64,000 nucleotides of DNA from a virus. Below, piece after piece: positions 45,803 through 56,434 of this stretch. The stretch lies in the IMG/VR virus record IMGVR_UViG_3300033388_007160, positions 22,020 to 86,019 of that record. One strand, given 5' to 3'. A model generated the notes under the pieces. The model saw only the letters and a program-made list of their open reading frames with translations, was not told the origin of the DNA and did not search any database. Position 1 is the first letter of the stretch. Each line of letters begins with the position of its first letter. The position numbers and the translations under genes were made by a program.

Positions 45803-45830
45803 AGTATACCTTGTAGCGCAAGCCGCTAAA
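45803..45830 (-). promoter_or_regulatory. GTTTAGC-type promoter
   Basis: TTTAGC (45830-45825), 16-bp spacer, TATACT (45808-45803), 25 bp before ATG 45778. Confidence 0.6.
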
Positions 45831-46212
45831 CTCTGATAAACCGACGGACCGCAACAATCTGCCCCTTCTCGTCGCGAATGGCCGTCGGGCCGGTATCTGG
45901 TGCCACCACAATGATAGCCCGGTCGTAATTTCTTGCCACCGTTTCAGTAACAGCCTGTAGCGCCGGAAGCGATACAATGAAGATGTGCGTCTGGTCCTCG
46001 TCGAGCAGGTCTTCAGGTGGCAACCCTTCCGGCTCGCCAAATATCCTCACGACAATCGGTAAGTCACAGTCATACAGGCGAGCTGTGGAATCAGGCCGGT
46101 CTTCACAAGTAAGCCTTGCCACATATCCGCTCGGCGGGAATCGAGCTACTATCTCGCCCGATTCGTCCGCCAAGCGAATCTCGTGCGGTGTAAGGTTCCA
46201 GACTTTATACAT
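45826..46212 (-). CDS. NLTPH-type small phage protein
   Basis: 128 residues from ATG 46212 (GGGAGG at good spacing). It opens with WNLTPHEIRLADESGEIVARFPPSGYVARL, a pattern I recall from uncharacterised phage and bacterial proteins (NLTPHxVxI...PPSGxxARV). Function unknown. Promoter at 46237. Confidence 0.55.
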   Translation of the reverse strand: MYKVWNLTPHEIRLADESGEIVARFPPSGYVARLTCEDRPDSTARLYDCDLPIVVRIFGEPEGLPPEDLLDEDQTHIFIVSLPALQAVTETVARNYDRAIIVVAPDTGPTAIRDEKGQIVAVRRFIRV

Positions 46213-46236
46213 CTTGCAATCGCCTCCCAGCTCTTT

Positions 46237-46264
46237 AGTATACCGCGCTAACGCCTCGCCCAAA
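46237..46264 (-). promoter_or_regulatory. GTTTAGC-type promoter
   Basis: TTTGGG (46264-46259), 16-bp spacer, TATACT (46242-46237), again 25 bp before the ATG (46212), the same geometry as at 45803. Confidence 0.55.
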
Positions 46265-46274
46265 CATCAAATTC

Positions 46275-46356
46275 TGGTGGACGCGCCCGGGAATCGAACC
46301 CGGGTACCAAGCGCTGCACACCGGCCTTAGCGCTTGGTCGAACCTATTCTGCGCCC
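46275..46356 (-). ncRNA. tRNA-like RNA A (tmRNA-like ends, no canonical anticodon arm)
   Basis: 82 nt, 5' to 3' from 46356. The acceptor GGGCGC pairs with GCGTCC, giving a G3-U70 wobble, then A73 and an encoded CCA. The T arm is a 6-bp CCCGGG stem with loop TTCGATT. The 12-nt 5' linker contains GGTTCGA and, with the next base, reads GGTTCGAC as in tmRNA 5' ends. In place of D and anticodon arms there is one 9-bp stem (CCAAGCGCT/AGCGCTTGG) with a 13-nt loop AAGGCCGGTGTGC. A TATAAT box lies 10 bp upstream at the stop of the previous gene. G3-U70 and A73 are alanine identity elements. A second member is at 54844. It cannot be a standard tRNA, and it is far too short for tmRNA. Confidence 0.75.
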
Positions 46357-46367
46357 ATACTGCATCA

Positions 46368-46946
46368 TTATATCCACTGGTAGGCGTCTTCAATAGCGCC
46401 CACAGCCTCGGCTACCAGCAGCCGATAAGGCCTAGGCAAGTCACTAAACAACTGCAGCCACCTGCCCAGCATGTTCATCTCCCTCAGCCCGGTTGACAGG
46501 TCTAGGGCCTCGGCTATCTCAGTGATGTCAAAACAAGCATCAATCGGTTCGCCGGTCACTTCTGCCCAGACCAGGGCCATGAAGACGGTTGCCGGGCCGC
46601 CGCTGCTACCGTAGTTACAGCTTGCCCATTCCACGCTCCTGACGATGTTGGCGGCCTTGGTCAGTTCCTTCCCACTGGGCCATAACTGTGCCGCTAGCTT
46701 AATCACCTGCAACAGGTCAATATCGCCTTCTTCTGCGTGAAGTGCGAAAGTCTCTGTATCAGTTTCCACGAATTCCACATCATCTTTGTCAATGCCGAAG
46801 CGCTTGAGGGCTTCAGCTATGGCGTATTTAGCACACGGCGCGATAAGCGCCCCAGCCCCCAGCACCCACATTGCAGTAGCCTTCTCCCTCAGTCCCTTAG
46901 GATACTTTTCGAAATTATCCGGCGTTGGCAAGCTCACGGTTACCAT
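46368..46946 (-). CDS. Uncharacterised protein upstream of the tRNA-like RNA
   Basis: About 192 residues from ATG 46946 (GGAGGTG upstream). Helical, with an alternating Ala/Gly-rich centre; no family. Its last codons contain the TATAAT box of the tRNA-like RNA. Confidence 0.5.
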   Translation of the reverse strand: MVTVSLPTPDNFEKYPKGLREKATAMWVLGAGALIAPCAKYAIAEALKRFGIDKDDVEFVETDTETFALHAEEGDIDLLQVIKLAAQLWPSGKELTKAANIVRSVEWASCNYGSSGGPATVFMALVWAEVTGEPIDACFDITEIAEALDLSTGLREMNMLGRWLQLFSDLPRPYRLLVAEAVGAIEDAYQWI

Positions 46947-46999
46947 CGCTTTCACCTCCGCTCAGTTTTCTCCCCGCCGCATGGCGGTCTATCCTTGCG

Positions 47000-47083
47000 C
47001 TAAACACCAAACATTAACCGCAACAGGCGATTAATGAGCTGGGCCAAAACCAAGGCCAGCAGAAACATCACTGCTGTTTCCAT
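47000..47083 (-). CDS. 27-residue membrane peptide nested in the next gene
   Basis: ATG 47083 with AAGAAGGAGGCG upstream encodes METAVMFLLALVLAQLINRL... ending at TAG 47000. It is one hydrophobic helix with a basic end. It overlaps the last 53 bp of the upstream gene in another frame. The good ribosome site argues for translation. Function unknown. Confidence 0.42.
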   Translation of the reverse strand: METAVMFLLALVLAQLINRLLRLMFGV

Positions 47084-47561
47084 TGGGCTTCGCCTCCTTC
47101 TTACTTCTGCTTGCTAACGCGCTTGTTAGTTTCCCCAATGCGCATACGAGCCTATAGAATGCCTGCGCATCCCAAGGATTATCGAAAGGCACATAGGGCA
47201 GAATCTCCAACCAAACGCCATCGGGAATCTCTTCATGGCGATAATATTTCTGGCCCCGCTTCCACTCTAACATCCACCCTGGGGAGATCATCCCCACAAG
47301 CCACCTGTTCTGTGACTTGTCGAATACCGGCGGCTCTAAGTCCACATGTTCGCGAAAGACGCGGAATAACCGCGCCAGCGGCATTTCTATCTCTGCGTTG
47401 ACGATGAATTCGCCGGTAGTAACTCGTATAAGCTTACCGCCTACCACTTGTGCCACGTGCCTCGCTGCTTCTTGGGCCGCCGCGCGAAACTCCTTTCGCG
47501 ATAAATCGTGATCAGTCGTCTCGCCATTCGGCTCGATATAGAATTGCATTATGCATCTCAT
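47031..47561 (-). CDS. Uncharacterised protein
   Basis: 176 residues (ATG 47561; ATG 47549 also possible). GGGAAGG lies upstream. Strand-rich with a central Trp-rich segment; no family. Preceded by the structured element at 47583. Confidence 0.5.
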   Translation of the reverse strand: MRCIMQFYIEPNGETTDHDLSRKEFRAAAQEAARHVAQVVGGKLIRVTTGEFIVNAEIEMPLARLFRVFREHVDLEPPVFDKSQNRWLVGMISPGWMLEWKRGQKYYRHEEIPDGVWLEILPYVPFDNPWDAQAFYRLVCALGKLTSALASRSKKEAKPNGNSSDVSAGLGFGPAH

Positions 47562-47582
47562 GTTATATCACTTCCCTTCCCG

Positions 47583-47624
47583 ACGCTTTGGCTCCACCGC
47601 CCAGCGCGATGAAGCCAAGGCGTT
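47583..47624 (-). repeat. Structured leader element 1
   Basis: Outer stem ACGC/GCGT, inner TGGCT/AGCCA, large loop, directly before the GGGAAGG ribosome site of the gene at 47561. Same two-part design as at 47889 and 49041. Confidence 0.5.
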
Positions 47625-47652
47625 GGGCCGGAGGAGCCCGGCCCTAGCGCCA

Positions 47653-47871
47653 CTACACCTCGCTGAACCGCATCTCTACGGTTACAATCTCCATGTCCTT
47701 CGCCCGCTGCTTCAGTTCTTCTTCCACCTGTTCCCACTCGCCTTGCGCCCACACCTGCCCCTGCGGGCCAAGAAGAACCCAGCTAAGCTCTCCGTCTATC
47801 ACCTGCGCCATAACGCAACAGCCCAGTGCAGCGCAGGCCAAGTCGAGCCACTTCTCTTGTTCCCAAGTCAT
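47653..47871 (-). CDS. Small uncharacterised protein
   Basis: 72 residues; GGGAAGGGGG precedes ATG 47871. One Cys pair (ALGCC) and Trp-rich helices. No family. Confidence 0.48.
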   Translation of the reverse strand: MTWEQEKWLDLACAALGCCVMAQVIDGELSWVLLGPQGQVWAQGEWEQVEEELKQRAKDMEIVTVEMRFSEV

Positions 47872-47888
47872 CGCTGGTACCCCCTTCC

Positions 47889-47930
47889 CGACGCTCTCGC
47901 CCCACCCTCGCGGATGGGGCCAGGGCGTCG
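47889..47930 (-). repeat. Structured leader element 2
   Basis: Outer stem CGACGC/GCGTCG, internal loop, inner GGCCCCA/TGGGGC with a 10-nt loop, ending 1-2 nt before the GGGAAGGGGG ribosome site of the gene at 47871. Confidence 0.55.
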
Positions 47931-47995
47931 GGCCGGGCCGAAGCCCCGACGCCTCAGACTGTTAGAGGCTTACAACTTGGTGCTTAGGCTGCCGC

Positions 47996-48176
47996 TCAGG
48001 CCGAAACAGGTTCAAGCCCAAGCGGTAAGTGACGCCCATCAATCACCAAGTCCACGTTGCCGTGCGTTGTGGCGATAACCGTGCTTTTGCCCGTGCGCGA
48101 TGGCTGGCCCTCCACACTCAGATCAATTCGTGATGACCAGCTTGCCCCCTTCGCGCTTCATGTCCACGTTATACAC
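47996..48176 (-). pseudogene. Small conserved-type phage protein, interrupted by a +1 frameshift
   Basis: GTG 48176 (GGGAGGTG upstream) starts MYNVDMKREGGKLVIT and stops at 48123. One extra base restores a frame reading IDLSVEGQPSRTGKSTVIATTHGNVDL to 47996. Together they recall a small widespread protein family (KLxITIDLSKxxGPSxSGKxxxIAST.GN). Either a natural frameshift, a programmed one, or a sequencing error. Confidence 0.5.
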
Positions 48177-48227
48177 TTCTCGCACCTCCCTCTTGCTTTT
48201 TATCATCGGGCGCTAACGCGCCCCCTT

Positions 48228-48629
48228 TTACTCCGGCGGCCAAATGTTATTGTCTGCGATATGAACAGCCTCCCACAGGGCCTCGGCTATGTCTGTCGTA
48301 ATCACAGCGGTTGTATCATCGGGCACTATATCGGCGTCGCGAAGTGTTTCATCATGCACGAACCAAGCCCGGCGAGCCCCCGTGTCAGAGATTTCTAGGC
48401 CGCGCGATACGACAGCGATGCCATCAGGCCCGATTACTTCGATGACGGTGAGCGGCGAACCTTCGGCAAGTGACGGCTGCTCCAAGGCGATGATTCGCTG
48501 GATCAACGTCCTCATGCCTTCTTGCCGGTCAGGATAGCACCCCAGCGCGAAGCCATTGTCCCAAATCCATCCTTTGTCGTCCGCGCCATAGAAGTGATAT
48601 TTGGGCGCTTTGATGGCTATAGCTACCAT
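48228..48629 (-). CDS. Uncharacterised protein
   Basis: 133 residues with GGGAGGTG before ATG 48629. Alpha/beta with an acidic C-terminus. No family. A large hairpin (about 48656-48720) precedes it, similar in position to the structured leaders nearby. Confidence 0.48.
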   Translation of the reverse strand: MVAIAIKAPKYHFYGADDKGWIWDNGFALGCYPDRQEGMRTLIQRIIALEQPSLAEGSPLTVIEVIGPDGIAVVSRGLEISDTGARRAWFVHDETLRDADIVPDDTTAVITTDIAEALWEAVHIADNNIWPPE

Positions 48630-48734
48630 GTGCCTGCACCTCCCTTGCGTGGGGCGCTAACCGCCCCGCATCCCAAACCTGCCGTTTCTCGCGACAAGTT
48701 TGGGGCGCGGGGCGTCAAGCCCCGCCGGTTGATT

Positions 48735-49019
48735 TTACGATGTTCGCCCTCCCTCTAGCGCTTTGGCTACCGCCCCCAACCACCTCGCCACCGCATCGGG
48801 CCTCTTCCACAAGGCAAACATCGCCCACGCTACCCAATCAGCCACATAAGCCTTGTCCTTGCCGTACGACTCAAGCGCTTTACCCAGTTCGTAGATAGCC
48901 GTTGCGGGATTTTCGGGGCGCAGTACACACGCCGCTGCCGCAATCGCTACACCAATCTCTGTATCTCTGTCTCCATCCAAGCTTTCCGGGCGAAATTCGC
49001 CGAGGAAGCTTCCCAGCAT
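48735..49019 (-). CDS. Small uncharacterised protein
   Basis: 94 residues from ATG 49019, which follows GGAAGGGGG; the frame is open to 49133 but the upstream part is the structured leader. Helical, Ala-rich. No family. Confidence 0.5.
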   Translation of the reverse strand: MLGSFLGEFRPESLDGDRDTEIGVAIAAAACVLRPENPATAIYELGKALESYGKDKAYVADWVAWAMFALWKRPDAVARWLGAVAKALEGGRTS

Positions 49020-49040
49020 TGCGCTACCCCCTTCCGTCTT

Positions 49041-49081
49041 CGGCGCTCCTGCCCCACCTTGGCGATGGGGCGGGATCGCCG
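49041..49081 (-). repeat. Structured leader element 3
   Basis: Outer CGGCG/CGCCG, inner GCCCCA/TGGGGC with a 9-nt loop, 8 nt before the GGAAGGGGG ribosome site of the gene at 49019. Confidence 0.5.
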
Positions 49082-49114
49082 GGCCGCCGCGAAGGCGGCC
49101 TTGGGCGATGAGCA

Positions 49115-49342
49115 TTAGGCTGTGGCAGCCCAAAGGTTCAAGGCGCTCAGTAGCTGCTCAAATACTTTCACCACCTTGCCTCGACCTGCTGGGAGCCGCA
49201 ACACATACTCTTCTTTTTCGGCGTCATAGTCGAGTTCGTAACCTGCTGCTTCTACTGCTCGGTCGAGGATATAGATATACGGCAGAAGAAATTCCTCCCA
49301 GTAGGTCACGTTGCCTTGCTCTACACGTAGACGCGCTTTCAT
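49115..49342 (-). CDS. Small uncharacterised protein
   Basis: 75 residues; GGGAAGGGGG precedes ATG 49342 and a GTTTAGC promoter lies 38 bp upstream. Balanced helical/strand sequence. First gene of the leftward cluster. Confidence 0.52.
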   Translation of the reverse strand: MKARLRVEQGNVTYWEEFLLPYIYILDRAVEAAGYELDYDAEKEEYVLRLPAGRGKVVKVFEQLLSALNLWAATA

Positions 49343-49380
49343 GCTCGTTCCCCCTTCCCTGTCTCGCGCTTTCCACTCTC

Positions 49381-49408
49381 ATTATACCCACTCGCGCCGG
49401 GTGCTAAA
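49381..49408 (-). promoter_or_regulatory. GTTTAGC-type promoter, strongest example
   Basis: TTTAGC (49408-49403), 16-bp spacer, TATAAT (49386-49381). Drives the leftward cluster from the edge of the control region. Confidence 0.65.
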
Positions 49409-49964
49409 CATGTTTTGTGTAACAACCTTGTTACATCCGGCGCCCGGCGCCAGTAATGCGCCTGCGCTCACCCAAAGCGCCGCTGCGGCGCAGCGCCTTT
49501 AGCGGCTTGTCACAATTGCCAAGCATTCGCAACAGCCAAGACTGTGTTACTGCAAATCGTGGGCAATAACGCAGGCCAAGCAGCTACTGCTGATTTGGGC
49601 CAAGCCCGGCCCAAGGCCTGAAGCTTAGCCTTGGACCTTCAGGCCTGGCCTTCGGCCTAGCCTTTATCGGCCTCCATTATATATATGTGCCAGTCGGGCC
49701 GGATTTAAACCTGCTGGGCCAGAAAATTTTCGGCTTTTCGGGCCGGGGCCTTGGGCCTGGCTTGAGGCGGGCCAGTCGGGCTGAGGCAGCCGGGCCGAGC
49801 CATATTGGGCTTGGCTGGCCAGGCCGAGCCAGCAAAGGCCGGGGCAATCGGGCTTGGGCCGGATCGGGCCGGGGCCTTCGGGCCGGATTAGGCCGAAGGC
49901 CGGGGCCGGATGTAACAACATGTTTACATCAGCATGTTTCGGGCCGGTTTAGGGTAGACTGGTC
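49409..49964. other. Gene-free control region saturated with GGCC
   Basis: No credible gene. By eye I count 25 GGCC tetramers between 49561 and 49920, against about 2 expected by chance at this GC content. Short inverted repeats (GTAACAACCTTGTTAC; GGCGCCCGGCGCC) lie at about 49419-49450, and a TGTAACAACATGTTTACA-like stretch at 49912. It separates the leftward and rightward transcription units. Confidence 0.6.
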
Positions 49965-49994
49965 TTGACAGCCATTAGCGTGATATGCTATACT
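49965..49994 (+). promoter_or_regulatory. Sigma-70-type promoter
   Basis: TTGACA (49965-49970), 18-bp spacer, TATACT (49989-49994), about 50 bp before ATG 50048. Confidence 0.65.
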
Positions 49995-50047
49995 GGGCCT
50001 TGACAATGGGCCTTGAGGCCCCCGAAGCTAAGTCGGAGGTGAGTCTA

Positions 50048-50266
50048 ATGTCTGAGAAACTCTACGAACTGGCCTGCCAACAGGCCGGGCCGGAGTTTGC
50101 GGAGTTAGTGCAGGATATTGCAATTGCAGTCCTTGACGAAATGGCCGCGGACGAACATGACCCAGAATGGCAGAAGGCCTTCAGCATTAACCGGGCCTTG
50201 AACTGGCTGAAGGCCAAGCGGGCCGTTGAGAAACTGGCTGCAGCATGGAAACAGGCTGAATCCTAA
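50048..50266 (+). CDS. Small uncharacterised helical protein
   Basis: 72 residues from ATG 50048 with GGAGGTGAG upstream; the frame is open further upstream but without a site. Helical, Ala-rich. First gene after the promoter at 49965. No family. Confidence 0.55.
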   Translation: MSEKLYELACQQAGPEFAELVQDIAIAVLDEMAADEHDPEWQKAFSINRALNWLKAKRAVEKLAAAWKQAES

Positions 50267-50281
50267 GGGGAGGTGAGTCCA

Positions 50282-50908
50282 ATGTCAGTAACCTTTGACG
50301 TATGGCCTTGGGCCGACAAGCTAATGCTTCAATTGGGCTTGGCCAGCCAGGCCAAACTGGTCAGGCTGGCCAGGTGGGCCAGCCAGGCCTTGAAAGCCAA
50401 GCCCAAGTATGAGTATCGGGCCTATAAAGCTGATATCAAGGCCGAAGGCCCGGCCTTCAAGCTTGTGTGGATGGAAAAGCCTTCCGGGCCTTGCTGGCTT
50501 ATCTGGGCCAAGCCCAAGCAAGCTTGGGCCTGGCCTATGTGGACTGAAGGCTGCATCATCGAGCGTCAAGGCCGCTTGTGGCTGCAGGCCCGCGGGCTTG
50601 GCATGATTGAGATTGATAGCATAAGCCAAGCTATTCATATCCTTCTGGCCCGGCCCGGCCTTGGGCCTGCTGAGGCCCCGGCCTACAAGGCCGAGCCAGA
50701 TAACGGCAGGCCGGATCGGGCCATTGTCACAACCCTTGAAGGCAGCCAGATAACCTACTACTACAAGCCCGAACCGGGCTACTGGGCCAGGCAGACTTTG
50801 CAAGACAAGGCCCTGGCCCGAGCCTGGCCCAAGGTAGTTTCATCATATCGGGCTTTGATGAGGCTTGCCAGGGAAAAGCAGGCCCAAGTCAAGCGGGCCT
50901 TTGACTAA
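50282..50908 (+). CDS. Uncharacterised protein encoded in GGCC-dense DNA
   Basis: 208 residues from ATG 50282 (GGAGGTGAG upstream). Lys/Ala/Pro/Trp-rich, with many codons falling inside GGCC or GGGCC tetramers, so DNA-level pressure seems to shape the protein. No family. Confidence 0.55.
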   Translation: MSVTFDVWPWADKLMLQLGLASQAKLVRLARWASQALKAKPKYEYRAYKADIKAEGPAFKLVWMEKPSGPCWLIWAKPKQAWAWPMWTEGCIIERQGRLWLQARGLGMIEIDSISQAIHILLARPGLGPAEAPAYKAEPDNGRPDRAIVTTLEGSQITYYYKPEPGYWARQTLQDKALARAWPKVVSSYRALMRLAREKQAQVKRAFD

Positions 50909-51060
50909 CAAACCCTCTTCGGGCCGGGCCAGCAGCATATCGGCCCGGCCCTTCTTTTTTGCCTGCCGGGCTTATCGAGAACCGTGAGCAAATGAGAATG
51001 AATAGCAAAGGAGAGGGAAGGGGAGTTGAGAGAGGTTTGCAGCAGCCAAAGAACCCCCTC

Positions 51061-51231
51061 CCAACACCCATAAAGTTTGACATATGTCGTCCCCTCCCAA
51101 CACCCGTGAAGCCCGACATATGTCATCCTCCCCCAACATCCACGAAATCCGATATATGTCACCTCCCTCCCCAATGCTCACAAAAGCTTGGGCGTATGTC
51201 GCCTTAGCACTCACGAAGTCTGATATATGTT
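51061..51231. repeat. Iteron-like array of five degenerate repeats
   Basis: Five copies of a unit centred on the palindrome GACATATGTC start at 51079, 51115, 51151, 51191 and 51222 (spacings 36, 36, 40 and 31). Copies 1 and 2 are exact at the palindrome; later ones vary (GATATATGTC, GGCGTATGTC, GATATATGTT). The sequence before each (CCAACACCC..AA) is also partly conserved. Likely protein-binding sites: a replication origin or an operator. Not CRISPR, because spacers are not unique. Confidence 0.68.
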
Positions 51232-51314
51232 ATGCCTGTGTTTGCTGGCTGTAGGGGATGGTGGGGAGTTTTGGTTCAACCGGGCTTCGCCGGGGGAGAA
51301 GGGAAGAGGTTGGG

Positions 51315-51365
51315 CCCTAGCTACCTATAGGATAAAACTACGTTTTATCCTATAGGTAGCTAGGG
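51315..51365. repeat. Perfect 24-bp inverted repeat (51-nt hairpin)
   Basis: Arms 51315-51338 and 51342-51365 are perfectly complementary, around the 3-nt loop TAC. Arms begin CCCTAGCTACC. No T tract follows. It could be a cruciform at an origin, a recombination or resolution site, or a strong transcription barrier. Confidence 0.75.
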
Positions 51366-51385
51366 TTGCCTCGCATGTTACTTTG

Positions 51386-51415
51386 TTGATAATTGCCGTC
51401 GGCGAATGGTATAAA
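51386..51415 (+). promoter_or_regulatory. Promoter of the gene at 51567
   Basis: TTGATA, 18-bp spacer, TATAAA. The 145-nt leader is G-rich (repeated GGTAGGATG-like units at 51430-51460). Confidence 0.48.
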
Positions 51416-51566
51416 GCAGGGCGTTTGTGGTAGGATGCGGCAGGATGTGGTAGGTTGTGTGGGTGGGAAGGGGCCGAAGTTGATACTTCCCTATGGGGAG
51501 AAGGTTATAGGTTTGAAAGGGCCTGGGCCGGGGCATACTTAAAACAAAAAAGGAGCGGGATAGGCG

Positions 51567-51872
51567 ATGGCCGGTGAGAAACCCCTGTGGCATATGGAGC
51601 TTATCGTTACGACGAAGGAGGAAGTTAGGCTGGATGGGCGGGCCTGCCCGGCGGCTGGCATCCTCGCTCTGTGGTTTGAACAGGGCAAGGACTGTGTGCT
51701 TTATATCCCCGTGAAGATGCTGGAGGACATGTTCGGGGCCTGCCCGGATGTGCTGGATGTGGCCATCTCCGGCAAGGCTCATCTGGATGGCACATATACC
51801 TTCGTTACGGTGCAGGCGGACGAAGGAGGGGAACTGGCGGTTTACGCTCAGGGCCCGATAGCTCGGTCATAA
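51567..51872 (+). CDS. Small uncharacterised protein
   Basis: 101 residues; AAAGGAG precedes ATG 51567. Strand-rich, two Cys pairs far apart. No family. Single gene between the hairpin region and leftward genes. Confidence 0.52.
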   Translation: MAGEKPLWHMELIVTTKEEVRLDGRACPAAGILALWFEQGKDCVLYIPVKMLEDMFGACPDVLDVAISGKAHLDGTYTFVTVQADEGGELAVYAQGPIARS

Positions 51873-51903
51873 CGATCTGCTTTTTTGAATCTAACTAGAG
51901 GCC

Positions 51904-52470
51904 CTACGAAGGTTTGCCATTCATCACAGTCTTCCTCCATGACCGCCAAGCTTTCTGTTTGGGACCGAAGGCCTTCACCGTATGCCACTGTTTGGTGCGG
52001 CCTGCACGCCAGGCCAGGAAGATGGGCGTGCCGGTTGCGTTAACCGCTTTCTGGATGGCCTTCTCCCAGGCCTGATAGCGATGGTCGTCCTTCAGATGGG
52101 CCAGCACAAGTTCTATGACCGCGAGGAACAAAGGCTGATTAGAGAGAGGCAGCGGCCCGATGTATATGGCACCGCCGTTGCGCAGGCGGCCTTCGGCTAT
52201 CATCCGGCCCAAACGGCGGTTGAATTGGTCTTTGATGGAACATAGGGCCACGCCAACCTGACCGGATGAAGAGTCATATGCTATCGTCATACCGCCATGA
52301 GGCAGAGGCTGCTTCCCATCCTGCAGCAACCTGTAGTGGAATATCTTCGCCTCTTCGTGGTCTTCAGCCCAGTCGTGATACGTTACCACAAGAGGTTCAG
52401 GCTGGCCGGGGTCAAGGACATCTGCTTGATACTTGAACTCTATGCCGGGGTTCCAAGCTCCCCTTCCCAT
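51904..52470 (-). CDS. Uncharacterised protein
   Basis: 188 residues with AAAGGAGG before ATG 52470. Mixed alpha/beta, basic C-terminus (KQKAWRSWRKTV). No family. Promoter at 52507. Confidence 0.52.
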   Translation of the reverse strand: MGRGAWNPGIEFKYQADVLDPGQPEPLVVTYHDWAEDHEEAKIFHYRLLQDGKQPLPHGGMTIAYDSSSGQVGVALCSIKDQFNRRLGRMIAEGRLRNGGAIYIGPLPLSNQPLFLAVIELVLAHLKDDHRYQAWEKAIQKAVNATGTPIFLAWRAGRTKQWHTVKAFGPKQKAWRSWRKTVMNGKPS

Positions 52471-52506
52471 GCTTATCCTCCTTTCGCATGATAGGCTATC
52501 ACAGTT

Positions 52507-52535
52507 AGTATACCATGCAGGATAGGCCGGTTAAA
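52507..52535 (-). promoter_or_regulatory. GTTTAGC-type promoter
   Basis: TTTAAC, 17-bp spacer, TATACT (52512-52507), 37 bp before ATG 52470, beginning at the 3' end of the tRNA-Glu gene. Confidence 0.5.
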
Positions 52536-52537
52536 CA

Positions 52538-52612
52538 TGGTGGCCCCGACGGGATTCGAACCCGTGTTACCGCCTTGAAAGAGCGGCGTCCTAGCCACTA
52601 GACGACAGGGCC
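52538..52612 (-). tRNA. tRNA-Glu (anticodon TTC)
   Basis: Full cloverleaf. Acceptor GGCCCTG/CGGGGCC, anticodon loop CTTTCAA, T arm ACGGG-TTCGAAT-CCCGT, and encoded CCA. It lies 9 bp after the ro60 stop, so it is probably cut from the same transcript. Confidence 0.95.
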
Positions 52613-52621
52613 ACCATCGGC

Positions 52622-54124
52622 TTATTCGAGGACAGGCCCTTCTGGCCCTTCCCAGTTTTCGATCACATCAACCAACTTATCCCAAACGAGGATGACCTTG
52701 AAGATGTTATCATTGAAGCCGCCGATGTCAAGAATGCGTGGATTCTGCGGCAGGTCGCTGGTGCCGTATGGGGCCAAGCAGACATTGACTACCCGAAGCT
52801 CCGGATTAAGGCCCAGAAGCTTTTTGATAGCCTCCCCCGCGTAGCCCCAGCTACCTGGCAACCAGGACTGCTCATCCGTAAGTATCACCACATAGTCAAG
52901 CTGGTTAGCATAGGCTGCTACCTTCTCAATGGCCTCGGCCAAATTGGTGCCACCGCCATCAACGTAAATCTGCTTGAAGATGTCATATGTTCGACTGGAG
53001 CGGCTGACTTTGCATTGTTGGGCCCCAGTGCCATAGCTGATTATCACGCCATTCTGAGCCTTCTTGAACGCTGCAGCAGCAAACAATCGGGCCACATCAA
53101 CCCGGCTGACCATTGACCTTGCACTCAAGAAGCCCAACATGCTGCCGCTCGTATCCACAAGCACACCTACACGGCCCAGTGAAGGCACATTGTCTGTTGC
53201 TATTTCTATGGCTTCAATCAGGGCGTCTTCGGCTTCCTGCTTGGCAGCCAAACTGATGTTCTCGTCTTCCAACTGCTGCACGCTTGCCAAGGCAGCCAGG
53301 AAACGGAACGGCATAATCTTGGGATGTCGGGCTGCTGCCAGAACTTTTTCTCTGTCAATTGGCACATTATGTTTAAGCAAGTTGCGCAGGTTGCGAATAT
53401 AAGCCATGGGCGGCATGATTTCAGCAGCCCTCATCCAAGTCTCATGGTTGCTGCCATAAGCGCTGATAAGAGATTCCCAAGTGGTGGCCTTGCCTTCCGC
53501 GTGGGCCTTAATCTCCTCAGGCGTATCTTCACCAACCTTGCCGGTTACAATCCACCTGAATGCGGCGGCCTGGGCTGCATCCTTGGGCTTCGGGTGAATA
53601 ACGTTCAGCACATCAACAAGGCTCCATTCGCGAGTTTTGCCACGATATTTGATAATCTCATACGGCGTCAAAGCTTGTAGCCTCTTGGCAATTGCTCTTC
53701 GCAGGGCCATAGGGATGGGGCCGCCATATACCTCTTTATATATAGCCAGTACTTCAGCGGGTTCATCGGCCCGTGCCATGATAACCGGCCCCCACTTGGC
53801 AACCCATGGCTTAGGTGCACATTCGTGGACTGGGTGCCCTGCCATCACAGCCAGCAAGAACTGCGGGGCCGTCCTCATGCCAAGTTCATGACGCAGCCAT
53901 GCAGCCAGCTTCAGCACGAATTCGGGGTCTTTGGTCCCAACTTCCAGCGCCAGATTCTTGATGGCCTCAGTGACTTCATGTTTGGTTGCGTAGAAGGTAT
54001 CTTCAAAGAAGTGTGTGGCACACCGCAGTGCCAGCTCCAGCTTGGGTGGATACTTGTAGGCCGGAGCCCCTTCATAGTTGACTGTCTTGCCTGCAGCCCG
54101 CTTAGGCTTGTTGAACTTAGCCAT
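52622..54124 (-). CDS. rsr: Ro60/TROVE RNA-binding protein
   Basis: 500 residues from ATG 54124 (AAAGGAGG upstream; human and Deinococcus Ro60 are about 530). The N-terminal ~310 residues are helical repeats of the TROVE ring; the C-terminal vWA domain has MIDAS residues DTSGSM (about 322), GGGTN and LTDEQS. Ro60 binds Y RNAs on its rim and misfolded RNA in its central hole, and helps RNA decay with PNPase in bacteria. Two Y-RNA-like RNAs lie directly upstream, the usual place. Phage homologues are known but rare. The symbol follows the bacterial name. Confidence 0.92.
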   Translation of the reverse strand: MAKFNKPKRAAGKTVNYEGAPAYKYPPKLELALRCATHFFEDTFYATKHEVTEAIKNLALEVGTKDPEFVLKLAAWLRHELGMRTAPQFLLAVMAGHPVHECAPKPWVAKWGPVIMARADEPAEVLAIYKEVYGGPIPMALRRAIAKRLQALTPYEIIKYRGKTREWSLVDVLNVIHPKPKDAAQAAAFRWIVTGKVGEDTPEEIKAHAEGKATTWESLISAYGSNHETWMRAAEIMPPMAYIRNLRNLLKHNVPIDREKVLAAARHPKIMPFRFLAALASVQQLEDENISLAAKQEAEDALIEAIEIATDNVPSLGRVGVLVDTSGSMLGFLSARSMVSRVDVARLFAAAAFKKAQNGVIISYGTGAQQCKVSRSSRTYDIFKQIYVDGGGTNLAEAIEKVAAYANQLDYVVILTDEQSWLPGSWGYAGEAIKKLLGLNPELRVVNVCLAPYGTSDLPQNPRILDIGGFNDNIFKVILVWDKLVDVIENWEGPEGPVLE

Positions 54125-54142
54125 CGAAATTCGTCCTCCTTT

Positions 54143-54182
54143 CAAAATAAAAAGCGCCGTCCCGCACGATGCGAGACGACGC
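54143..54182 (-). terminator. Intrinsic terminator/attenuator before ro60
   Basis: A 13-bp stem (arms 54182-54170 and 54166-54154, two G-U pairs), TCG loop, then TTTTTATTTT. It ends the RNA transcript 19 bp before the ro60 start, so ro60 expression needs read-through. Its 5' arm region contains a 14-nt perfect complement of the 5' end of Y-like RNA 2. Confidence 0.85.
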
Positions 54183-54221
54183 CCCGTCTATGGGCTGAGA
54201 GCCCGGAGGTTGAATGCTATT

Positions 54222-54291
54222 GGCACGAGAATAACGACAACGGCACGGTTCAGCTCCAAAGGCTGAAGTAACCGTTGTCTCGCATCGTGCC
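54222..54291 (-). ncRNA. Y-RNA-like RNA 2
   Basis: About 70 nt. Closing stem GGCACGA/TCGTGCC, then TGCGAG-N4-CGGTTACTTC, an inner stem GACAACGG/CCGTTGTC and a 6-bp hairpin with a 7-nt loop (TTCAGC/GCTGAA, CTTTGGA). It shares TGCGAG-N4-CGGTTACTTC with RNA 1, with N4 changed on both strands. Confidence 0.75.
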
Positions 54292-54318
54292 AAACTTCTT
54301 TTGAATTTTCAAGGTTGA

Positions 54319-54416
54319 GCGCGTAGAGTATATTGGTTGCGGTACTTTTTCCAGCCGCCTCAATGGCGGAACCGGATTTCGAGTCCGGAAGTAACCGCAA
54401 CCTCGCAGCTACGCGC
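54319..54416 (-). ncRNA. Y-RNA-like RNA 1
   Basis: 98 nt. Perfect 8-bp closing stem GCGCGTAG/CTACGCGC; TGCGAG-N4-CGGTTACTTC; inner stem GGTTGCGGT/ACCGCAACC; two small hairpins, one like a T arm (CCGGA-CTCGAAA-TCCGG) and one CCGCC-ATTGA-GGCGG. The 5' end falls exactly 7 nt after the -10 box at 54423. The tRNA-like module recalls bacterial YrlA RNAs. Confidence 0.8.
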
Positions 54417-54422
54417 AGGTTT

Positions 54423-54450
54423 AGTATACCACAATGCAGGCAATTCTAAA
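54423..54450 (-). promoter_or_regulatory. GTTTAGC-type promoter of the Y-RNA/ro60 unit
   Basis: TTTAGA (54450-54445), 16-bp spacer, TATACT (54428-54423). Predicted start 54416, the first base of Y-like RNA 1. Confidence 0.65.
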
Positions 54451-54465
54451 CACTGGTGAAGCAAA

Positions 54466-55086
54466 GTGCTGGCTATAATCAGTTTGGCTCTGTCTTTAGC
54501 CCAAGCGCCCAACTTGGCACTCATCTACCATACCGACAGGCTTTTCAGTTACCGCCTCGTGGCCGACCGGCCCCTGCCCAAAGGCAGCCTGCTTATCCTT
54601 ATTACTAAGAGTCCCCTGCAGGCCACCGGCCCCGCTTTGAGCTGGAAGAAAACGATTTACTTCGGCAGCATTGCTGCTTGGCGAAAGACAGACGAACGAA
54701 TCAGACGTTATTACCAGTCATTCGACGTAACGACGTGCTATCCGGCCAGGCTGGGCAAGATTTTCTGGGTTCTTGCCACACCTTCTGGTTGTTGGTGGGG
54801 CGTTTGCTGGGGGCCATGCAGTCCGATGCGGTATAATAGTTTTGGGCACGCGAGTGGGCTCGGCGGCGGGGAGAGCCGATGTGCGCCCCGCTGCACGCGG
54901 GTTCGAATCCCGCCGTGTCCACCAGCGTTCAAGTTTGTGAACAGGCCCAGCAGGGTAAACTCTCCACGAAATGAAGAGGAAGGTTCAGCGAATCATCAAT
55001 GCCCTCAACCGCTGGTGGGAACTGCGCCGGTTCCCCGAGAGGCTGAAGTATCAACGTTTTCTGGAGCGCAATCTCTTCAATCTTGA
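54466..55086 (+). CDS. Doubtful ORF, 3' part overrun by the tRNA-like RNA
   Basis: GTG start; the first ~110 residues look protein-like with an N-terminal hydrophobic segment (LAIISLALSLA) and phage-like codons. The rest runs through the promoter and tRNA-like RNA B and is probably not coding. It may be a gene truncated by arrival of the RNA gene, or fortuitous. Confidence 0.28.
   Translation: MLAIISLALSLAQAPNLALIYHTDRLFSYRLVADRPLPKGSLLILITKSPLQATGPALSWKKTIYFGSIAAWRKTDERIRRYYQSFDVTTCYPARLGKIFWVLATPSGCWWGVCWGPCSPMRYNSFGHASGLGGGESRCAPRCTRVRIPPCPPAFKFVNRPSRVNSPRNEEEGSANHQCPQPLVGTAPVPREAEVSTFSGAQSLQS
54832..54837 (+). promoter_or_regulatory. -10 box of tRNA-like RNA B
   Basis: TATAAT; the first G of the RNA is at +7, so the primary 5' end would already be mature. 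No clear -35. Confidence 0.5.
54844..54924 (+). ncRNA. tRNA-like RNA B (same family as RNA A)
   Basis: 81 nt. Acceptor GGGCACG/CGTGTCC (7 bp, G3-U70), A73, encoded CCA; T arm GCGGG-TTCGAAT-CCCGC. A single 9-bp stem (GCGGCGGGG/CCCCGCTGC, one G-U) with 14-nt loop AGAGCCGATGTGCG replaces the D and anticodon arms. Loop shares GCCG-T-GTGC spacing with RNA A (10 of 13 identical). Linker lengths (12 nt 5', 2 nt before the T arm) also match. No cloverleaf can be drawn. Confidence 0.75.
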
Positions 55087-55306
55087 TGAAAACGGCGACA
55101 TAAACACGATACTCGGCCACTGGATACATATCCGCCGAAGGTCGGATGGTCGCTTCAATCAGCGTGATATACAGGACGCCTTGCGGAACCTCGACCTGCT
55201 GATTGAAACGGCCAGCTTCATGAAAGAAGTCATTCAAAATCTTGAACAAGAAGCGGAGAGTGAAGGGCATGGAGTCGAGACGGAGCGAACTGTGCGTGAA
55301 CGTTGA
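54971..55306 (+). CDS. Uncharacterised basic protein
   Basis: 111 residues; no clear ribosome site. Helical, basic N-terminus (KRKVQRIINALNRWWELRRF). Overlaps the next gene. No family. Confidence 0.45.
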   Translation: MKRKVQRIINALNRWWELRRFPERLKYQRFLERNLFNLDENGDINTILGHWIHIRRRSDGRFNQRDIQDALRNLDLLIETASFMKEVIQNLEQEAESEGHGVETERTVRER

Positions 55307-55541
55307 AGTTGACCCGCTGAGCCATCTTTTTGAGTATCCCGAAGTCGTGGAATATTTCAAGCAGGGCAAACTCAGCATAGCCCCGCAGAAGGCTGCATTA
55401 CAGATAGGAGCTGTTTCGCTTATCTCATATGGCGACGATTCGGCTGATGCGTTGCGACGCTTGGTTTATATGTGCAAGGCTATCAGCGTGGAATACAGTT
55501 TGTTGCGCCGTTTCTTCCTTACAGGAGGAGATAAAGAATGA
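55269..55541 (+). CDS. Uncharacterised protein
   Basis: 90 residues from ATG 55269 (GAAGGG upstream). Mixed; no family. ATGA overlap with the kinase-like gene. Confidence 0.48.
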   Translation: MESRRSELCVNVEVDPLSHLFEYPEVVEYFKQGKLSIAPQKAALQIGAVSLISYGDDSADALRRLVYMCKAISVEYSLLRRFFLTGGDKE

Positions 55542-56434
55542 CAGAAGTGCCCATTCTTGTTGTAGGAGACAGTTTCCTTGACATTTTGCTTGACGTTGGG
55601 GTCACGACTGAGGCTGAAGATGCACCCACCTACAAGGCCAACCGGACGTATGCGGCTTGGGGCGGGGCGGCCAACGTTGCTTGGTGCCTTGAGTGGATGA
55701 ACCTGCCGGTTTCTTCTGCTCTATGCTGGCCTTACCGCGATTCGAGTATAGCCAAGTGGGGCAACGGCCAGATTATGCTACCAGCACAACCTTATCCCTG
55801 TGCCACTACGGCTCCACTGCAGGTTCGCATGAGGTTGCGTGATAACAATGGTCGGCTTTGTCGGATAGATTTTCCGGCCCCAGAAGAACCATACTATTTC
55901 AGCGGATGGAAAGATGATTTGCAGCGAATGCTTAACGACAAGGAGTGGAAAGTGATTGTCATTGCTGACCACGGATATCTGCCTGAGCTTATCAACGAGG
56001 TTGTTGGCCAGATTAGCCTGAATTGCGAGACCATCATCATCTACGATTGCAACTGCCGGGTGCCACCACCCCAAAGGTTGCTGAAGCACGAAAACTGTAT
56101 CATCAAGGCCAATCAGTCTGAGATTGAGCGCTGGCCCTACCTAAAGCATACTGCCTTGACTCTCATTGTGACACGAGAAACTGAGCCGACGCAGCTCTTT
56201 GTGAATGGTTGCCTGTATGGCACTTATGAAGTGCCCGCCCAGATAGCTCCTGCTTCATGGGAATATTCCGGGGCCGGTGATGCTTTTGTTGCCCGCCTTG
56301 CAGCTCAGTGTGCTTGGGTTGCTCCTGGAGACCTTACTCCTCATTTCTTGGAAGAAGCTGTTCGCAATGCCCAACTGTTTGTGCTTGAATACATGAGCCG
56401 CTGGCATGAACGATACAAAGAGGTGAGTGGATGA
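55538..56434 (+). CDS. PfkB/HldE N-domain-like sugar kinase
   Basis: 298 residues with GGAGGAG upstream. LVVGDSFLDILLDV and WGGAANVA (about 43) match the start of HldE/RfaE heptose-7-phosphate kinase, and SGAGDAFVARLA (about 246) is the PfkB signature with the catalytic Asp. HldE makes heptose-1,7-bisphosphate, the substrate of GmhB (36450). In most bacteria kinase and nucleotidyltransferase are one protein; here the two halves lie 13 kb apart. A general sugar kinase is the alternative. Confidence 0.65.
   Translation: MTEVPILVVGDSFLDILLDVGVTTEAEDAPTYKANRTYAAWGGAANVAWCLEWMNLPVSSALCWPYRDSSIAKWGNGQIMLPAQPYPCATTAPLQVRMRLRDNNGRLCRIDFPAPEEPYYFSGWKDDLQRMLNDKEWKVIVIADHGYLPELINEVVGQISLNCETIIIYDCNCRVPPPQRLLKHENCIIKANQSEIERWPYLKHTALTLIVTRETEPTQLFVNGCLYGTYEVPAQIAPASWEYSGAGDAFVARLAAQCAWVAPGDLTPHFLEEAVRNAQLFVLEYMSRWHERYKEVSG

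Follow-up and report, generated by a model that had tools for sequence, protein, structure and literature searches.

The presence of two tRNA-like sequences on opposite strands of a phage contig raises the question of what kind of RNA they encode and how such RNAs might serve the phage. The DNA under study (hereafter the window) comprises 64,000 nucleotides, bases 22020-86019 of a virus record of 86,019 bases. RNA A (82 nt, 46275-46356, minus strand) is placed between the minus-strand open reading frames 45826-46263 and 46368-46955, while a plus-strand open reading frame begins at 54971, downstream of RNA B (81 nt, 54844-54924, plus strand). An earlier note on this sequence had presented the pair as the two members of a new family. 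The evidence below leads us to conclude with high confidence that both RNAs are phage-encoded tag-less tmRNAs, that is, tmRNA tRNA-like domains lacking the mRNA-like domain. Hence the family is not new, its kind having been reported from phage DS6A, and its membership extends to dozens of homologues in viral contigs.

The acceptor 5′ strand of RNA B (GGGCACG, 54844-54850) forms all seven pairs with 54914-54920; that of RNA A (GGGCGCA, 46350-46356) forms six of seven pairs with 46279-46285, the exception being an A7-C66 mismatch. The acceptor 3′ strands (46275-46285 in RNA A and 54914-54924 in RNA B) contain U70, A73 and an encoded CCA, and both RNAs thus carry the G3-U70, A73 and CCA determinants of alanine identity. 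The T arms lie at 46286-46303 in RNA A, as aligned to a covariance model named R1 (see below), and at 54897-54913 in RNA B, as set by the structural register. The D-loop regions, GAATAGGTTCGAC in RNA A (46337-46349, aligned to R1 and to full-length tmRNAs) and CGAGTGGGCTCG(GC) in RNA B (54851-54862, R1 alignment), are followed by helix P2. The 5′ strand of this helix in RNA A, ACCAAGCGCT (46329-46338), forms 10 bp with the 3′ strand at 46306-46315, and in RNA B the strands at 54863-54871 and 54886-54894 form 9 bp, the 3′ strands being placed by folding and register. P2 is shortened in both molecules and capped by a small hairpin. The capping loop of RNA A, AAGGCCGGTGTGC (46316-46328), can be written internally as GC-CGGTGT-GC, a motif shared with loops of the family; that of RNA B, AGAGCCGATGTGCG (54872-54885), as GC-CGATGT-GC. 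Folding yielded -39.7 kcal/mol (z -3.2) for RNA A and -44.4 kcal/mol (z -1.6) for RNA B. The acceptor, T arm and linker of about 12 nt described in the earlier note were all confirmed in the sequence, as were the opposite orientations, and folding agreed with its single stem of 9-10 bp closed by a 13-14-nt loop with GCCG(A/G)TGTGC. What had been taken for a linker is, however, the stem-less D-loop of tmRNA, and the 9-bp stem is P2.

Both RNAs aligned end to end (positions 1-374 of 374) with RF00023, the one-piece bacterial tmRNA model, skipping about 300 model positions that correspond to the 303-nt mRNA-like domain. In the curated-threshold Rfam search RNA B scored 51.1 bits against a gathering score of 47. 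RNA A scored 34.9 bits, which is below this cut-off and above the 23.6 bits of the window's tRNA-Glu; its assignment rests also on the D-loop, P2 and register as read from the sequence. Full-length tmRNAs from bacterial genomes, when compared with RNAs A and B, have GG.TTCGAC beside the acceptor, while their T arm is preceded by GGAC. The D-loop of RNA A, GGTTCGAC, is an exact fit to the tmRNA pattern ..GG..UUCGAC, without a D stem, and that of RNA B, GGGCTCGGC, departs from it at a single base of the TCGAC core; in place of GGAC, RNA A has GTAC and RNA B GCAC. The two RNAs contain no pseudoknots and no mRNA-like domain between their halves. We rejected their assignment as full tmRNA (ssrA), since the tag reading frame and resume codon are absent from the 13-14-nt loops, and the RF00023 search found no separate coding piece or second tmRNA piece anywhere in the 86-kb contig. 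They are not tRNAs either: both lack a D stem and the anticodon stem-loop of a cloverleaf. ARAGORN called neither as tRNA or tmRNA, in agreement with the earlier claim that these structured, tRNA-like molecules lack an anticodon arm, and RF00005 at its gathering threshold matched only the tRNA-Glu (52538-52612), the sole ARAGORN tRNA of the window. A structural scan of the window that required a 5/5 T stem, ACCA, an acceptor with no fewer than 6/7 pairs and the D-loop motif returned exactly A and B, and none of 30 first-order Markov resamplings of the window gave a match.

Exact TATAAT sequences precede both RNAs, 10 nt upstream of the 5′ end of RNA A (46367-46372, minus strand) and 6 nt upstream of that of RNA B (54832-54837, plus strand). 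The latter spacing suggests that a transcript could begin at the first G of RNA B. The window contains 18 TATAAT sequences on the two strands together, and a promoter scan revealed no good -35 motif for either RNA. As relatives showed no TATAAT enrichment, a family-wide promoter of this type was rejected. The tRNA-Glu gene adjoins a minus-strand gene (52622-54145) for a Ro60-like protein with TROVE and vWA_Ro60 domains; relatives of this protein occur in 93 phage records, the best being that of Thermus phage phiLo (30% identity). The phage itself is very isolated by sequence: megablast of 46000-56000 against isolated phages found no match, its terminase is about 23% identical to those of isolates, and searches of viral contigs with terminase, primase and Ro60 revealed no close relative at the sensitivity used.

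Relatives of the RNAs were sought by several scans. One loop-first pattern produced no match and a loose pattern produced chance matches in genome contigs; another loop-first pattern gave 65 matches, mostly due to chance, with one true homologue, L046. This 80-nt RNA, carried by a 39.9-kb phage contig, scores 62.9 bits with RF00023 and shares ten identical loop bases, GCCGATGTGC, with RNA B, in support of the conserved loop proposed earlier. A loop-free scan of viral contigs for the D-loop, T arm and acceptor end identified at least 120 stretches. When a full acceptor fold and G3-U70 were required, at least 69 distinct RNAs of 63-94 nt remained, including those of the window and L046. Among the matches listed, ARAGORN calls overlap three of the 69 RNAs, and ten of the 69 have a tRNA no more than 500 nt away, in every case on the strand of the RNA itself. 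Two members (L285 and L216) may not consist of the tRNA-like domain only, as longer ARAGORN tmRNA calls overlap both, and L216, L247 and L283, with a P2 of 3-4 bp, are weak members.

Nine of these viral RNAs, none from the window and none chosen by its loop, served to build the covariance model R1. Applied to the window, R1 ranked RNA B first (58.5 bits, E 9.6e-12) and RNA A second (51.9 bits, E 3.6e-10), with tRNA-Glu third at 25.8 bits. When R1 was run on 68 sources, scores of 40-99 bits were obtained for nearly all family RNAs, and tRNAs did not exceed 35; L247 was weak (30 bits). Every other carrier has one R1 match (E ≤1e-6), and the two copies of the window are unique among the carriers examined. 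In an alignment of 76 rows, which includes a few tRNAs and, being fitted to the structure, is biased in that direction, 97.9% of stem cells were paired and the covariation score was 0.721, compared with 0.143 after shuffling. Stem-pair covariation was far above shuffled and slid controls, and all seven P2 pairs showed changes on both sides. The earlier observation of divergent stems, which are kept paired, was correct.

A second scan of viral contigs, selecting only for AAGTG.A, GGAC and the T-loop, gave at least 100 places. A contiguous 7/7 acceptor was present upstream in 13 of the 100 places listed, with TCGAC in 10 of the 13. Nine of these RNAs were new and scored 64-74 bits with R1. Several of the 13 lack an encoded CCA; nine RNAs consisting of the tRNA-like domain only (L371, L376, L378, L388, L412, L413, L415, L422 and L443) end in ACGC, ACAA, ACGA or ACTA. 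Since these 3′ ends differ from ACCA, CCA would need enzymatic addition in L371 and similar RNAs.

The G3-U70 and A73 alanine identity elements pointed out in the earlier note belong to the alanine-accepting end of tmRNA and are intact in A and B. The base facing U70, which was not part of the loop-free pattern, is G in 63 of 63 of the matches listed, a count that leaves out the 32 of 95 matches without a full acceptor. G3-U70 was likewise found in 13 of 13 among the matches listed from the second scan, where neither base had been selected. Such strict retention suggests that charging matters in nature. The capping loops also show recurrent features. Of 46 longer family loops, 11 contain the motif AARCC..(A/T)AGTG.A, compared with 0.44 expected on shuffling; as the motif was written after some of the loops were known, this count is indicative and not a blind test. 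An inner GC/GC pair closing a six-base loop is possible in RNA A (CGGUGU), RNA B (CGAUGU), L046 (CGAUGU) and L310 (CAAAGU), the corresponding pair being CC/GG in L241 and AC/GU in L290; these pairings are a reading of the sequence. In about 20 members the loop measures only 3-9 nt.

R1 was also run against 399 Pseudomonadota and 400 Chloroflexota genomes. Matches occurred in 28 of the 799 genomes, and the 13 loci checked were genuine tmRNA 3′ parts (up to 51.7 bits) or tRNA-Ala; none of the loci examined was an RNA with the tRNA-like domain only. The matches to genuine tmRNA 3′ parts show kinship with tmRNA. The R1 score of RNA A, 51.9 bits, is on par with that of the best genuine tmRNA 3′ end among these roughly 800 genomes, and a score near 52 is therefore no proof in itself in gigabase searches. 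A search for SmpB genes in 50 carrier records found none; many of these records are fragmentary, which makes this absence an incomplete proof. The idea that SmpB is carried along with the RNA was rejected, and host SmpB would serve instead.

On balance, RNAs A and B probably act as decoys that damp trans-translation in the host. If expressed, they would be charged by the host alanyl-tRNA synthetase at G3-U70/A73-CCA and bound by host SmpB at the D-loop/P2 face, as suggested by the intact alanine determinants and the tmRNA-type D-loop. With EF-Tu, the charged RNAs would be competitors of the host's own tmRNA, both for SmpB and for stalled ribosomes. Supplying no message, they would behave as dominant-negative molecules during infection, presumably to the benefit of the phage. 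An RNA resembling the tRNA-like domain of DS6A is reported to inhibit tmRNA strongly in Escherichia coli, in chargeable and non-chargeable form alike, perhaps through titration of SmpB (PMC4131195, PMC11915505). Although pure SmpB titration needs no charging, the strictly kept alanine determinants suggest a role that requires aminoacylation, and given the strict G3-U70, active ribosome entry appears as likely as titration.

Could these RNAs help rescue rather than block it? Charged RNA with SmpB would then enter stalled ribosomes and take the peptide, leaving other factors to release the peptidyl-RNA, as suggested for tag-less mitochondrial tmRNAs. The G3-U70 pair in 63 of 63 and 13 of 13 of the matches listed, implying that charging matters, would suit such a role, and in mitochondria tmRNAs that lack a tag frame have persisted alongside SmpB (PMC11915505). 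However, the E. coli test of the DS6A-like RNA resulted in inhibition (PMC4131195, PMC11915505), and no RF-1-family release factor was found in the phage contig, making tag-less rescue rather unlikely. We regard as less probable still a role unrelated to stalled ribosomes, in which the RNAs would donate alanine or present the capping loop as a binding platform to a phage protein. The conservation of the capping hairpin beyond pairing (the motif in 11 of 46 loops, where 0.44 would be expected) and the ten bases identical in RNA B and L046 fit a binding site, but the loops of 3-9 nt in some 20 members indicate that not every member needs it, and the tmRNA-specific D-loop TCGAC and GGAC are kept.

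Two further readings concern origin and partners. Phages often have tmRNA 3′ ends at attP, and blastn against isolated phages matched only tmRNA 3′ parts, as at attachment sites or in permuted genes, several isolates carrying such 3′ parts only; 14 isolates scanned whole contained no convincing RNA with the tRNA-like domain only. That A and B are integration-site remnants of a host tmRNA gene is nevertheless extremely improbable, as both keep intact 5′ as well as 3′ halves, with a compensated P2 and no leftover middle; the two copies are divergent and covariation extends across the family. Bacterial Y RNAs likewise mimic tRNA, and the neighbouring gene with TROVE and vWA_Ro60 domains could point to Ro60-bound Y RNAs. 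This is very improbable: no Rfam Y RNA family matched A or B, arguing against Y RNA or YrlA membership, and the Ro60 link was rejected because TROVE is missing from the other 49 carriers and four Ro-carrying phages, when scanned, lacked such an RNA.

The decoy reading has its closest precedent in mycobacteriophage DS6A, which encodes a tmRNA limited to the tRNA-like domain (Mao et al. 2009), reported as an inhibitor of host tmRNA (PMC4131195, PMC11915505). Like A and B, that RNA is phage-encoded, has little beyond the tRNA-like domain and carries no tag, a likeness drawn from its description. DS6A offers one sequence from one phage, whereas here there are two divergent copies in a contig, dozens of relatives and a recurrent capping loop. 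Bacterial one-piece tmRNA shares the G3-U70, A73, CCA acceptor, the stem-less D-loop GG..UUCGAC, P2 and the T arm, but measures about 350-390 nt, with an mRNA-like domain, tag frame and pseudoknots missing from the 81-82-nt RNAs. The tag-less tmRNAs of organelles (mitochondria of jakobids and oomycetes; forms of about 65 bp in Mallomonadaceae plastids) have also kept the tRNA-like domain and lost the tag frame; they reside in organelles, whereas A, B and their relatives are found on viral genomes and are diverse in sequence.

The kind is thus known but almost undocumented, from one phage and organelles. Of the 97,179 sequences in the 2025 tmRNA database, 9 are standard tag-less forms; the same database has 79 phage tmRNAs (PMC11915505). 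A search mostly outside subscription journals found no paper on a widespread phage class. One scan adds at least about 70 tag-less tmRNAs from diverse viral contigs to a curiosity known from one mycobacteriophage, and phages apparently carry them much more often than existing records show. Tentatively, they may form a large unrecognised class of phage RNA, missed by standard gene finders: alanylated tag-less tmRNAs that would reprogram or block ribosome rescue, with a capping hairpin that binds a further factor. If they inhibit trans-translation, ribosome rescue would be a frequent phage target, and RNAs of 65-90 nt would make it possible to test whether phage growth gains or suffers from trans-translation.

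Permuted two-piece tmRNA, as in the marine phage Melnitz (PMC9004378), is also phage-encoded and has a similar AAGTG hairpin near P2, but its halves are in reversed order. By 5′-half position, the second scan revealed at least 73 such genes in viral contigs, which make up most of its remaining places; three permuted loci tested with R1 reached 26.5 bits at best. Many of these genes (L368-L469) have a CTTCAAAGTGAAG hairpin before GGAC. Finally, Tunturiibacter phage Tunturi_4 (L330:2616-3030) contains an unannotated tmRNA 3′ end about 38 nt downstream of a gene for an RF-1-domain release factor. This gene possibly encodes a ribosome-rescue factor, and the tmRNA 3′ end may be an attachment site.
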